Under the pieces are notes generated by a model that saw only the letters and a list, made by a program, of their open reading frames with translations, was not told where the DNA came from and searched no databases. This document shows positions 43,213 to 49,184 of a DNA stretch of 49,285 nt, one piece after another. The position numbers and the translations under genes were made by a program. Within the stretch, counting starts at the first letter, position 1; the number at the start of each line of letters is the position of its first letter. Source of the stretch: Nitrospirae bacterium JdFR-85 (GTDB lineage: Bacteria > Nitrospirota > Thermodesulfovibrionia > Thermodesulfovibrionales > JdFR-85). The DNA is taken from the NCBI GenBank assembly GCA_002011745.1, contig MTOU01000003.1, forward strand, positions 1 to 49,285. The letters run 5' to 3'.

Positions 43213-43240
43213 ATTTTATACTTCGGTTTTATTTTATCAA
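43213..43240 (-). promoter_or_regulatory. Cytochrome gene promoter
   Basis: On the minus strand TTGATA (43235-43240), 16 bases and TAAAAT (43213-43218) form a fair sigma-70-type promoter about 55 bases before the cytochrome ATG. It shares two bases with the AT-rich palindrome at 43239-43256. Confidence 0.45.
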
Positions 43241-43256
43241 AACTTTAAAAAGTTTT
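43239..43256. repeat. AT-rich palindrome at the cytochrome -35 region
   Basis: AAAACTTT (43239-43246) and AAAGTTTT (43249-43256) are perfect eight-base arms separated by two As. The site lies in the divergent gap between the cytochrome and the polysaccharide regulator and touches the cytochrome -35 box. It may be a protein-binding site, but AT-rich palindromes also arise by chance. Confidence 0.35.
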
Positions 43257-43290
43257 CCACAACTTTGATTTTTTAGGGCTTTATATGTTA

Positions 43291-43307
43291 TGTTCATATT
43301 ATGAACA
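43291..43307 (+). promoter_or_regulatory. Operator-like 17-base palindrome over the regulator start codon
   Basis: TGTTCATA-T-TATGAACA is a perfect palindrome with eight-base arms and a single central base. The ATG of the MarR-type regulator (43301) lies in its right arm. TATGTT (43289-43294) with TTGATT (43265-43270) could be its promoter, so a bound repressor would block transcription. The position suits autoregulation by the encoded protein. Confidence 0.5.
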
Positions 43308-43906
43308 ATTCACAGAAATCTGATACAGAGGAGTATAGGGCTTTACAGATCCTTGACGAGCTTTCAAATAATAACTCTCTTACTCAGAGAGAACTGAGCA
43401 AGCGGCTTGGAATTGCCTTGGGACTTGTGAATTCATATATAAAGAACCTGATAAAAAAGGGTTATATAACAGTAAAATCCATACCCCCTAAGCGATATGT
43501 CTACTATCTTACACCAAAGGGTTTTACAGAAAAGACCCGCCTTACATATCGTCTTTTACAGGATTATACAAGAATATATCGTGAAGCAAGGGCTAATCTC
43601 AAAAAACTATTTCAAGAAATCCAGTCCGAGGGTACAAGAAGGGTTGTCTTTGCTGGTGCAGATGAGGTGGCTGAAATAGCATATATTACCCTTCAGGAGA
43701 CTAAGCTTGAACTGGTAGGAGTAATGGATGATTCACAAATAGGTAAGGAATTCTTTGCCTTTAAGGTACATCCACTTAAGAACCTTCTGCAGACAGAATA
43801 TGATGTGGTGATTATAGCCTCCTATCTTAAGCGAGGCCAACTCTATGAAGCCCTTAAAGAGTTGGGGATAGAGGAGAAGAAGATAAAGAGTATTTTTGTA
43901 CAATGA
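43301..43906 (+). CDS. EPS-associated MarR-type regulator with nucleotide-binding domain
   Basis: This 201-residue protein has an N-terminal winged helix (LTQRELSKRLGIALGLVNSYIK; a wing near SIPPKRYVYYLT) of the kind often encoded first in exopolysaccharide/O-antigen loci. A linking helix and a C-terminal Rossmann-like domain follow (RRVVFAGADEVAEIAY; VGVMDDSQIGKEF; DVVIIASYLKRGQLYEAL) that may sense a nucleotide or sugar nucleotide. There is no Shine-Dalgarno sequence; the start codon sits inside a perfect palindrome. The stop overlaps the flippase start (ATGA). Confidence 0.85.
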   Translation: MNNSQKSDTEEYRALQILDELSNNNSLTQRELSKRLGIALGLVNSYIKNLIKKGYITVKSIPPKRYVYYLTPKGFTEKTRLTYRLLQDYTRIYREARANLKKLFQEIQSEGTRRVVFAGADEVAEIAYITLQETKLELVGVMDDSQIGKEFFAFKVHPLKNLLQTEYDVVIIASYLKRGQLYEALKELGIEEKKIKSIFVQ

Positions 43907-45246
43907 AACTTTTAGAAAAGACAGAGACAGTCTTTGCTGCTACATCTCATACCAGAGAGATTTTAATAGGGTCTGGCTGGTCTTTCATGTTTAAAGTCCT
44001 TGCCTTAGGACTTGGATATATATCTACTTTAATAATATCAAACTTCTTTGGTGCCAGGGTGGTAGGGCTCTTTAATCTCTCTGCAACTGTTGTGACTATT
44101 GTGGTAATGTTTTGTCTAATGGGGTTTCCCACATCCATTTTAAGATTTGTTGGAGAGTATCAAGGTGACAGGGCTATTATTAGTATATTAGTACGTATGA
44201 TATTGATAAGTATTTTCACATCTTTTCCTTTTCTGATTGTAGGCTTTATCTTTGCAGATGAGATATCTATCCATGCCTTTCACGATGAAAGACTAAAGGA
44301 TTTCTTAAGGGTAATGTTTGTAGGTATTCCATTTGTAGTTGTTACAAATATACTGATTGAGTTCATACGGGGACTGAGGCTTATTAGAGTTTCTGAGACA
44401 CTTAGGAATTCTAATGTGTTATTTAGTCTTCCAGCTATAGTAATATTAGTTTTTCTATTGAAGTTCAATGATCTTACGCCTGCTGTAGCATACCTTTTTG
44501 CCTCAATAGCAGTTTTTACCATAGCTGTCTTTTATGTGCAAAAAACGGTTAAAAAATTGGAGTTTTATAAAAATACAGCCATTCAATATAAAAAAATAAT
44601 AAAAGTCTCTCTTCCAATGTTGATGACTGCTTCCATGTTTCTGATCACAGGTTCTGTTGATAAGCTCATGCTTGGATACTTCATGGGGCCTAAGGAAGTA
44701 GGTATCTATTCAGTGGCCTTCAGGGTGGCTGCACTGACGAGTATGATCCTGATGGCCATTAATACCATTGTGGCACCAAAGATGGCAGAACTTTACTGGG
44801 CTAAGAGATACAATGAACTGAAAAATATGGTGAGATTTTCTGCTAAGTTAATCTTTTTCTTATCCTTTCCGATACTTCTCTGCTTTATTATCTTTGCAAA
44901 GCCTATACTTTCACTTTTTGGACAGGAATTTGTTGCAGGGAAATGGGTATTGATAACTATTAGTGCAGGAGAGTTTATTAACGCTACCACTGGTCCAGTA
45001 GGATATTTTCTTGATATGACCGGTCTTCAGGTAGTACGTCGTAACCTGGTTTTCTTGTATATGCTTATGAATGTTTCCTTGAATTATATTCTTATTCCTG
45101 AGTATGGCTACAATGGTGCGGCTGTGGCTACAGCATTTACGCAAGGACTTTTTAATATAGCGGCTCTTATTTATGTATGGGTGAAAAGAGGGATTTTTAC
45201 TGGCTACATTCCTTTTGTTAGATTTGGTCAAGGAGATGTGCAATGA
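43903..45246 (+). CDS. wzx: Oligosaccharide flippase (Wzx type)
   Basis: This 447-residue polytopic membrane protein has about 12-14 helices and belongs to the polysaccharide-transporter/MATE-like superfamily (VVGLFNLSATVVTIVVMFCL; MGPKEVGIYSVAFRVAALTS). It is predicted to move undecaprenyl-linked repeat units across the inner membrane. It is tightly coupled to the regulator upstream and the sulfotransferase downstream by four-base overlaps. The membrane flippase family is firm; the exact glycan is unknown. Confidence 0.85.
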   Translation: MKLLEKTETVFAATSHTREILIGSGWSFMFKVLALGLGYISTLIISNFFGARVVGLFNLSATVVTIVVMFCLMGFPTSILRFVGEYQGDRAIISILVRMILISIFTSFPFLIVGFIFADEISIHAFHDERLKDFLRVMFVGIPFVVVTNILIEFIRGLRLIRVSETLRNSNVLFSLPAIVILVFLLKFNDLTPAVAYLFASIAVFTIAVFYVQKTVKKLEFYKNTAIQYKKIIKVSLPMLMTASMFLITGSVDKLMLGYFMGPKEVGIYSVAFRVAALTSMILMAINTIVAPKMAELYWAKRYNELKNMVRFSAKLIFFLSFPILLCFIIFAKPILSLFGQEFVAGKWVLITISAGEFINATTGPVGYFLDMTGLQVVRRNLVFLYMLMNVSLNYILIPEYGYNGAAVATAFTQGLFNIAALIYVWVKRGIFTGYIPFVRFGQGDVQ

Positions 45247-46166
45247 GACAGCAACTTCCAGATTTTTTGATTGTAGGTGCAGCTAAAAGCGGGACGACAT
45301 CTTTGGCAAATTATTTATCTGAACATCCTAATATATTTATCCCTAATGTGAAAGAACTACATTTTTTTGCATTTGCCAATGATTCTCCTAAGTTTAGTAC
45401 TCCTCATATATTAGGTCCTGTTCTTATTACCACTTTATCTGAGTATCTAAGTTTCTTCTCTTCTGCTCCTATAAATGCAGTTTTAGGAGAAGCTTCAGTG
45501 TCTTATCTTTACCAAAGATTATACAAGAGAGTAATTTCTAATATAAAAAAATATCATTCAAGATGGAAAGAAATAAAAATTATTATTATTCTTAGAGAAC
45601 CAGTTGAAAGGGCATTTTCACATTATGTAACACGACTTAATGATTTAGAAAGATTACCATTTAAAGAAGCTGTTTGGGCATGGCAAGAAAGAGAGAAAAA
45701 AGGATGGACTATAGCATATGATTACTTAGGATTAAGCTTTTATTATGAACCAGTAAAGGCATATGTTGAGACTTTTGATTATGTAAAAGTCTATCTTTAT
45801 GAAGATTTACAAGAAAGACCTTTGTGGTTAGTAAAAGATATTTTTAAATTTCTTGAAGTAGATAGTGATTTTATTCCTCAAAATCTGGGAAAGAAATATA
45901 ATGTTTCATTTGCAAATAAAAGTGATTTGCATCATATGTTATATAAACTTTATTGTACAGGTATAAAATATAATCCCTTAAAGCCTGCTATGAAAAGAAT
46001 ATCCGAGCAGACAAAAGAAAAAATTCATATGTGGATAAAGAAACAACTTTTTGTTAAACCACAACTTGATAAGGAAGTAAGAGAATCTTTAAAAGAAGTT
46101 TTCAGAGAAGACATTCTTAAACTCCAGGATCTTATAAAAAGAGACCTCTCACATTGGTTAAAATGA
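45243..46166 (+). CDS. PAPS-dependent sulfotransferase
   Basis: This 307-residue protein of the heparan-sulfate-type sulfotransferase family is predicted to move sulfate from PAPS to a glycan. The 5'-phosphosulfate loop is AAKSGTTSLANYL (about 13-25), and the 3'-phosphate strand and helix are LREPVERAFSHYVTRL (about 118-133). Its DNA is visibly richer in A and T than the upstream genes. It sits between the flippase and sugar-nucleotide genes, so the surface glycan is probably sulfated. Confidence 0.85.
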   Translation: MRQQLPDFLIVGAAKSGTTSLANYLSEHPNIFIPNVKELHFFAFANDSPKFSTPHILGPVLITTLSEYLSFFSSAPINAVLGEASVSYLYQRLYKRVISNIKKYHSRWKEIKIIIILREPVERAFSHYVTRLNDLERLPFKEAVWAWQEREKKGWTIAYDYLGLSFYYEPVKAYVETFDYVKVYLYEDLQERPLWLVKDIFKFLEVDSDFIPQNLGKKYNVSFANKSDLHHMLYKLYCTGIKYNPLKPAMKRISEQTKEKIHMWIKKQLFVKPQLDKEVRESLKEVFREDILKLQDLIKRDLSHWLK

Positions 46167-46177
46167 AAGGAGACAGT

Positions 46178-46594
46178 ATGGGAAGACTTAAGAACTGTAA
46201 GATTATTCAATTGCCAAAGATAACAGACAGAAGAGGCAATATTACATTCATTGAGAATAATAGACACATTCCTTTTGAAATCAAAAGGGTCTATTATCTT
46301 TATGATGTTCCCGGAGGAGAGAGCAGAGGCGGTCATGCTCATAAGCAGCTTCATCAATTTATAATTGCAGCCAGTGGTAGTTTTGATGTTGTGCTTGACG
46401 ACGGCTTTGAAAGAAAGCGGTTTCATCTAAATAGATCCTATTATGGTCTCTACCTCTGTCCTATGGTATGGAGGGAGTTAGATAATTTCTCTACAGGTGC
46501 TGTATGTTTAGTACTTGCTTCAGAATTTTATGATGAAAAGGACTATATTAGAGATTATAGTGAATTTAAAAGGTTGGTAAAAGGAGAAAAATAG
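46178..46594 (+). CDS. fdtA: dTDP-4-oxo-6-deoxyglucose 3,4-ketoisomerase (FdtA/QdtA type)
   Basis: This 138-residue cupin moves the keto group of dTDP-4-keto-6-deoxyglucose from C4 to C3, preparing it for amination. Cupin residues are in [19 protein letters not shown], and the family start [19 protein letters not shown] is clear. I chose the ATG at 46178 because AAAGGAG lies five bases upstream; a longer frame from 46154 runs into the sulfotransferase. FdtA and QdtA differ in product stereochemistry and cannot be told apart by eye. Confidence 0.85.
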
Positions 46595-46595
46595 A

Positions 46596-47159
46596 ATGAA
46601 AGGCGTATTTATTCATCCAAAGGCTATAGTAGAATCTCAGGATGTTGGAGAAGGAACAAAAATATGGGCTTTTGCTCATGTTCTTAAGCATGCCAAGATA
46701 GGAAAGAACTGTAATATATGTGACCATACTTTTATCGAGAATGATGTGATTATAGGAGATAATGTTACTATTAAAAATGGGGTTTATTTGTGGGATGGAA
46801 TAAGGATTGAAGATAATGTTTTTATAGGCCCAAATGCAACTTTTACAAATGATATTCGTCCAAGAAGTAAGGTATATCCAGAACAGTTCCTCAAAACCCT
46901 TGTAAGGATAGGGGCAAGTATAGGGGCAAATGCTACTGTTCTTTGTGGGATTACCATAGGTAAATGGGCAATGGTGGGAGCAGGGAGTGTGGTGACCAAG
47001 GATGTGCCAGACTATGCATTAGTATATGGAGTACCTGCAGAGGTTATAAATTATGTATGTGAATGTGGTAAGGACTTGGAATTCAAAAATGATATAGCAG
47101 AGTGTGAGTGCGGAAAGGTGTTTAAAATCATAAATAAGTCTGTAGTGAGAAAAAAATGA
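46596..47159 (+). CDS. fdtC: Sugar N-acetyltransferase, hexapeptide-repeat type (FdtC-like)
   Basis: This 187-residue left-handed beta-helix acyltransferase has hexapeptide repeats throughout ([51 protein letters not shown]). A C-terminal cysteine-rich tail follows ([16 protein letters not shown]). Such enzymes acetylate the amino group of dTDP-3-amino-3,6-dideoxyhexoses. It starts one base after fdtA and overlaps the aminotransferase by four bases, supporting a common pathway. Confidence 0.85.
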
Positions 47160-48250
47160 TTGAATTTGTAAGAATTAAAGATGAATTGATAGAAATAGAA
47201 AAGGCTATTCAAGGAGTTATAAAAAGAGGATGGTTTATCTTAGGTGAGGAAGTAGAAAACTTTGAAAGAGAATTTGCTCACTATCTGGGTGTAAAATATG
47301 CAGTCTCTGTTAATTCTGGCTCAGATGCCCTTTATCTTGCAGTCAAGGCTCTTGGGATCGGTCCTGGCGATGAAGTAATAACGGTGGCACATACTTTTAT
47401 ATCAACAGTAGATGCAATAACAAGAAATGGGGCTACGCCCGTGTTTGTGGATATTGAGCCAGACACATACTGTATAGATGTTACTCAGATAGAAGAAAAG
47501 ATTACAGACAGAACAAAGGCTATAATACCTGTTCATCTTTATGGCCATCCAGCAGATATGGACCCTATAATGGAGATTGCAAAAAGATACAATCTTTATG
47601 TTATAGAGGATGCCTGCCAGGCCCATGGTGCTGAATACAAAGGTAAAAAAGTGGGCAGTGTTGGCCATTTAGGATGTTTCAGTTTTTATCCTGTAAAGAA
47701 TCTCGGTGCTTATGGCGATGGAGGAATGGTAGTTACTAATAATGAAGAATTAGCAGAAAGGATCAAAATGTTGCGCAATTACGGTCAGAAGAAAAAGTAT
47801 TTTCATGAGTTCATAGGAATCAATAGCCGCTTAGATGAGATCCAGGCTGCGGTATTGAGAGTAAAACTGAAGTATTTAGATGAATGGAACAACAAAAGGC
47901 GAGAAATTGCAACTTTGTATAACAGAGCACTTAAAAGATTAAATGTGGTTACTCCTGTAGAACGGGATTATGCAAAACATGTGTATCATCTGTATGTGAT
48001 AAGACATGAAAATAGGGATAAACTTCAGAGATATCTTCTTGAGAGAGGTATCCAAACCCAGATTCATTACCCTGTACCCGTGCATAAACAGAAGGCATAT
48101 TTAGAAAGACATTTACAAATAAAATTGACTGTAACTGAAAGAATATGTGGAGAAATAGTTTCTTTACCTATATATCCTTGGATAAATTTAGAAGATGTGA
48201 GAGTTGTTATTGATACTATAAATAGCTTTTTAAGTCAGACAAAGGTGTAA
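47156..48250 (+). CDS. fdtB: DegT/DnrJ-type sugar aminotransferase (FdtB-like)
   Basis: This 364-residue PLP enzyme aminates the C3 ketosugar made by FdtA. The PLP lysine lies in [17 protein letters not shown] (about 178-194), and the family stretches [14 protein letters not shown] and [11 protein letters not shown] are present. With fdtA and fdtC it would give dTDP-3-acetamido-3,6-dideoxyhexose (Fuc3NAc or Qui3NAc). The rmlA/rmlB genes that make the precursor are not in the window. Confidence 0.9.
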
Positions 48251-48254
48251 AAAA

Positions 48255-49184
48255 ATGCATCAGTATGAATATACACCTTTGGTAAGCATTATAATTCCTG
48301 CTTATAATCACGAAAAATATATTGAAGAGGCAATTAAAAGTGTGGGGACAGACTTATCGGAGTATTGAGATGATAGTTATTGATGATGGTTCTATAGACA
48401 GAACACCTGAAATATTAGCAAGATTACAAAAAGCTTCGCCTTTTGAATTCAAATTTATTAGACAAAGGAATTTAGGACCCTCAAAGACTTTAAATAAAGG
48501 TATCCGTCTCGCTCAAGGTGAGCTTGTATCTTTTTTAGCTTCTGACGATTTTTACTCAAAGGATAAAATAGAGAAGCAGGTAGAATGTTTTAGAAGGAAT
48601 TCCAGACTGAAGATTGTTGTAGCAAATGGAAGGCAGTATAAGGATGGAAAAACATTAAAAAGAATTCATTCAGAGAGAACTATTAGAATTCTTAATTCAG
48701 ATAAAAATACCATTTTGAGATATTTATATACTGAAAGCACATCTTTTTTTTGTCAGACTGCCTTATATAGAAAAGATTTTCTTTTTAAGGTCGGTCTTTT
48801 TGATGAAGAAGTTTTAGCAGATGATTGGGTTTTAAATATAAGAATATTTCAGAATATAAAAGATGAGAGTGAATATGCATACCTTGACGAGGATGTTGTC
48901 TATTATCGTCAACATGAATCCAATTTCATGGAGATATAGAAAGACATAATATGCTGAAGTTACAAGTCATTGAGAAATATTGTCCTCAAAAGTATAGAAA
49001 AGAGGCAGAAGGAAATATTTACTATGAAATTGCTAAATCATATATTATACATGATAAGTTTTTACAATCTATGAAATTTTTTTTAAAAAGCAATATTAAT
49101 AATTTTTGTTTAAAAAGATTATTTGAGTATTCAGTGATTATTTTATACAAAATTAAGAAGTTGACAATAGATAGAACTAAATGA
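48255..49184 (+). pseudogene. Family 2 glycosyltransferase broken by two frameshifts
   Basis: Three reading-frame pieces line up as one glycosyltransferase. Piece 1 (48255-48368) starts MHQYEYTPLVSIIIPAYNHE and reads ...EEAIKSV, then leaves frame. Piece 2 resumes at about 48343 with WGQTYRSIEMIVIDDGSID and continues through FLASDDFYSKDKI to YYRQHESN before a stop at 48937-48939. Piece 3, back in the first frame, reads ERHNMLKLQVIEKYCPQK and ends at 49184. The first break fits loss of one two-base unit in a GTGTGTGG run; the second lies between 48924 and 48938. The pieces together match a whole GT2 protein of about 310 residues. This is either real decay or sequence error. Confidence 0.75.

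Follow-up and report, generated by a model that had tools for sequence, protein, structure and literature searches.

A conserved dyad over the start codon as the predicted autorepressor operator of a winged-helix regulator heading a polysaccharide operon

The window (the whole stretch of DNA that was analysed, 49,285 nucleotides) carries a polysaccharide operon whose first gene encodes a regulator and whose downstream genes overlap or nearly touch one another (Table 1). The 17-base palindrome with a start codon described in the first-pass annotation was read from the window sequence at 43291-43307 as TGTTCATA-T-TATGAACA (perfect 8+1), with the ATG at 43301-43303 in its right arm opening a 201-aa frame. 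Going upstream from this ATG, an in-frame stop is first met after 27 bases, with no alternative start between. A divergent gene with multihaem-cytochrome motifs lies 143 bases upstream of the regulator, and the divergent intergenic region holds a second inverted repeat, AAAACTTTAAAAAGTTTT, at 43239-43256, which is AT-rich, possibly due to chance, and was not seen in the upstream regions of relatives.

Table 1. Features of the regulator locus and the operon behind it (positions in the window).
Feature	Position	Strand	Remarks
Predicted -35 element, TTGATT	43265..43270	+	Starts at -36 from the A of ATG
Predicted -10 element, TATGTT	43289..43294	+	-12 to -7; overlaps the left operator arm
Predicted operator dyad, TGTTCATATTATGAACA	43291..43307	.	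Conserved core GTTCA-N5-TGAAC at 43292-43306
Predicted transcription start, first base of the start codon	43301..43301	+	From the -35/-10 spacing and the absence of Shine-Dalgarno motifs
Regulator, 201 aa	43301..43906	+	N-terminal MarR/PadR-like winged helix, long helix 72-109, C-terminal Rossmann-like domain ~112-201
Wzx-type flippase	43903..45246	+	Overlaps the regulator stop codon
Sulfotransferase	45243..46166	+	
FdtA-like sugar ketoisomerase (PF05523)	46154..46594	+	
Hexapeptide sugar acetyltransferase	46596..47159	+	
DegT/DnrJ sugar aminotransferase	47156..48250	+	
Family 2 glycosyltransferase	48322..48939	+	

Perfect 8+1 palindromes were expected by chance (three in the window, with a mean of 1.0 per shuffled window), and palindrome length by itself was dropped as evidence; the site stands beyond chance because it is conserved. 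Although the palindrome is perfect over 17 bases, as first annotated, its conserved portion is narrower, namely (T/C)GTTCA-N5-TGAAC(A/G), and the inner TA/TA pairs vary among relatives. In the genome search and the comparison of orthologous loci proposed in the first-pass annotation, the exact GTTCA-N5-TGAAC core has a single copy in the 2.33-Mb genome of the source organism, at the regulator start, and recurs near the start of most homologues.

Homologues were collected by protein and not by dyad. The long-form loci of the same order all carried the dyad or a variant of it differing by one to two bases at the start codon, and a further 80 loci were taken from Nitrospirota, Desulfobacterota/Geobacteraceae, Alphaproteobacteria and one gammaproteobacterial bin, which gave 97 testable loci in all, the effective number being somewhat lower because some genomes came into the set by two routes (e.g. 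L003/L050). The exact core was found within -150 to +60 in 92 of the 97, compared with a mean of 0.03 of 97 for the permuted-arm control (59 permutations), and outside this interval just 10 copies of the core occurred in the other 837 kb. The five loci without an exact core comprise four with a near match and one whose arm contains a run of N. A later protein search added 30 Geobacteraceae loci, some perhaps from species already present in the first set, and all 30 have the core. In 85 of 98 loci the right arm has an in-frame ATG, GTG or TTG at one fixed position. The arm columns hold 1.4-2.0 bits of information and the centre and flanks mostly less than 0.5; the loci used for these columns were picked by a dyad score of at least 8/10, so that the arm values are somewhat favoured, and the count of 92 of 97 is free of that choice. 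Codon 2, for Asn, is AAC in 84 of 85 genes, compared with 53% AAC at other Asn codons of the same genes, so that the DNA is constrained here and not the protein alone. A genome-wide regulon of the exact site in the source genome was rejected, as there is no second exact copy and one-mismatch matches lie near the control. Site counts per genome were barely above those of the reversed pattern in many genomes and, being near control, were weak as evidence of co-occurrence; since such counts add little, the support for an operator is positional.

The dyad also has a fixed register to the predicted promoter in Nitrospirota and Desulfobacterota, with TTG at about -36, a -10 element from -13/-12 to -7 (TATGTT, TATTGT and similar) and the start codon at the expected +1. 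Of 84 relatives, 79 have TTG[ACT] at -38 to -35 and two have Shine-Dalgarno-like 4-mers, and the window has the same promoter layout (TTGATT, 18 bases, TATGTT, six bases, ATG). The predicted promoter spacing thus sets +1 at the start codon with no Shine-Dalgarno motif, as in leaderless genes. Because the -35/-10 spacing is fixed and Shine-Dalgarno motifs are absent, we infer with good support that the mRNA is leaderless, and the dyad would then probably cover both its -10 element and its start codon. The -10 hexamers are weak and lie partly within the arm, so that promoter conservation could account for some of the conservation of the left arm.

The position and number of the dyads vary among groups. 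In a group of Nitrospirota a second dyad lies 15 bases further on, inside the gene, and the protein starts with MNVQ or MNVH and has a further Asn at residue 7. An additional dyad lies 49-60 bases upstream in some Desulfobacterota, and in Alphaproteobacteria the dyads upstream of the start come in pairs, spaced by about 21-28 bases. The dyad of Chelatococcus and Bradyrhizobium is off the start codon and TTGAC overlaps its arm, which argues that the dyad is no coding or start-codon artefact. Extra sites were found at further promoters within the polysaccharide locus itself, namely before an asparagine-synthase-like gene in Bradyrhizobium, before a cytidylyltransferase-like gene in a deltaproteobacterial bin, and before a flippase gene in a genus mate of the source organism, behind the stub of a second regulator copy. 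These extra sites and variations fit an operator and are not expected of a hairpin or of coding constraint. Short MarR_EPS genes had an N5 dyad at most 250 bases upstream in 8 of 19 cases (controls 0), all eight belonging to the 15 Nitrospirota ones.

Several side observations concern these loci. In locus L054, 1622 bases upstream of the regulator, a second dyad is followed by a regulator-copy stub (MNKDSEAEGYRVLRR) and then directly by a flippase gene, as if an operator had been kept after its regulator gene decayed. Four short forms on Rhodobacterales plasmids (L177-L180) show by eye GTTCA-N4-TGAAC, with spacing one base less than elsewhere, about 80-120 bases upstream of MarR_EPS genes. The source genome contains a decayed MarR_EPS gene of the short form, interrupted by several in-frame stops (G000:C23:3832-4128, L027). 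In some loci a NusG paralogue directly follows the regulator (L107:6589-7146 and L121:6588-7106), which suggests paired control of initiation and elongation.

Three other explanations of the dyad were weighed. The -10 element and the start codon overlap the arms, and conservation might accordingly reflect no more than a -10 sequence and a conserved Met-Asn start, the symmetry being incidental; this is the least probable of the three and hardly credible, given that GTTCA at -9 to -5 is nearly invariant next to variable bases just before it, that the Asn codon is almost always AAC, and that second dyads occur 15 bp on within the coding sequence or 49-60 bp upstream. A hairpin formed by the RNA around the start codon, controlling translation of the regulator, would account for an inverted repeat that spans the start codon in most relatives, yet it is judged extremely unlikely: its left arm would lie outside the RNA if transcription starts at the A of ATG as predicted, its 5-bp arms are weak and so invariant that no compensating changes argue for pairing, and in Alphaproteobacteria and short-form genes the dyad is in the promoter region, off the start codon.

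It is also very improbable that a different regulator binds the site while the MarR-like protein acts elsewhere. These genomes do encode further winged-helix proteins, but the dyad accompanies the MarR-like genes, long-form and short-form alike, from phylum to phylum, and the exact dyad is nowhere else in the source genome. On the comparative sequence evidence, the dyad very probably serves as operator for the regulator gene that starts within it and is a predicted autorepressor site.

The regulator passed the cut-offs of the MarR families PF01047 and PF12802 (28.6 bits vs 24.6 and 34.4 bits vs 27), and all 17 aligned members matched the MarR family. It had been called an EPS-type MarR, of which the resemblance stands and the strict assignment does not, the score against TIGR04176 (MarR_EPS equivalog) being 74.1 bits, under the 88-bit cut-off; the polysaccharide-locus position expected of TIGR04176 was found (flippase, FdtA, acetyltransferase, DegT and GT2 downstream). 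The full predicted model has a mean pLDDT of 86, and its residues 1-100 match PadR/MarR winged helices with Z up to 14. All 96 members share the helix-turn-helix residues Q29, R30, L40, G41, L42, N44, Y46 and K48, in keeping with an unchanged half-site. The C-terminal Rossmann-like domain proposed from the sequence was recovered by structure prediction and fold comparison: modelled alone it reached a pLDDT of 96, with structural matches to 2g6t (Z 12.9), Rex (Z 9-11), succinyl-CoA synthetase alpha, WbaP and PerB/PglB acetyltransferases. Pfam gave no reliable family for this domain alone, PF02629 appearing in 1 of 77 members (E 0.027); a PDB sequence search with the domain found nothing, and a PDB search with its profile gave a weak match to 2g6t only. 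G119 and E125 do not vary among the 96 members; GxGxx[GA], a motif bearing on NAD(H) binding of the Rex kind, occurs in 23 of the 96 and is absent from the window protein (GADEVA). From the modelled fold, the domain could bind a nucleotide-like ligand, and its suggested role in ligand sensing is plausible, if a guess; the ligand might be a sugar nucleotide.

The protein shares with MarR_EPS a related winged helix and the polysaccharide neighbourhood, and many short MarR_EPS members carry the same half-sites upstream; it differs from them in falling below the cut-off, in its extra Rossmann-like domain and in a predicted operator lying over the start codon, MarR_EPS sites being further upstream and, in the Rhodobacterales short forms, spaced by N4 instead of N5. 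Its predicted build resembles that of Rex, with a winged helix followed by a Rossmann-like domain within about 200 aa, and so does its predicted palindromic operator; the C-terminal alignment with Rex is equalled in closeness by other Rossmann proteins. Unlike Rex, its N-terminal domain matches HTH_24/MarR, the Rex DNA-binding domain being absent from the families listed in the Pfam scans, its Rossmann glycine motif is mostly altered in the family, and its predicted half-site is GTTCA. The Rex operator half-site is TTGTGAA. CrtR of Corynebacterium glutamicum differs in its isoprenoid ligand and carotenoid genes, and we know of no Rossmann domain in it. CrtR is a MarR-type regulator of a biosynthetic locus, and the paper on it contains the terms leaderless, operator and autoregulation (PMC5401885). 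We know of no report of the present operator; no published operator or studied member of the present regulator family was found in the open-access literature searched, and the novelty of the operator is provisional.

The autorepression of the polysaccharide locus first proposed is supported by comparison, nearly every homologue having the dyad at its promoter or start codon, and control of the locus is supported by the recurrence of the dyad at further promoters there in some genomes. As the dyad sits over the -10 element and the start, we likewise infer repression rather than activation with good support, the dyad presumably being bound by the encoded regulator. A dimer of the winged-helix protein would bind GTTCA-N5-TGAAC, lie over the DNA from the -10 element to codon 2 inclusive and block RNA polymerase at a single promoter, from which the regulator and the downstream polysaccharide genes are predicted to be transcribed as one leaderless mRNA. 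How tightly the DNA is held would probably be set by a small molecule in the Rossmann-like domain. We give an even chance to the broader proposal that Rex-like repressors with a MarR-type head, across Nitrospirota, Desulfobacterota and Alphaproteobacteria, make polysaccharide operons respond to a nucleotide-type metabolite, acting at an operator that is merged with the start codon of a leaderless transcript and so dictates the first residues of the protein (Met-Asn, or Met-Asn-Val-Gln/His-x-x-Asn with a second operator in the gene). The predicted operator GTTCA-N4/5-TGAAC of this widespread family would predict targets in polysaccharide loci, and since the gene was found in 47 of the 48 Geobacteraceae genomes sampled, binding and transcript start could be tested in laboratory organisms. 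The locus would offer a clear example of a DNA operator that constrains protein sequence.
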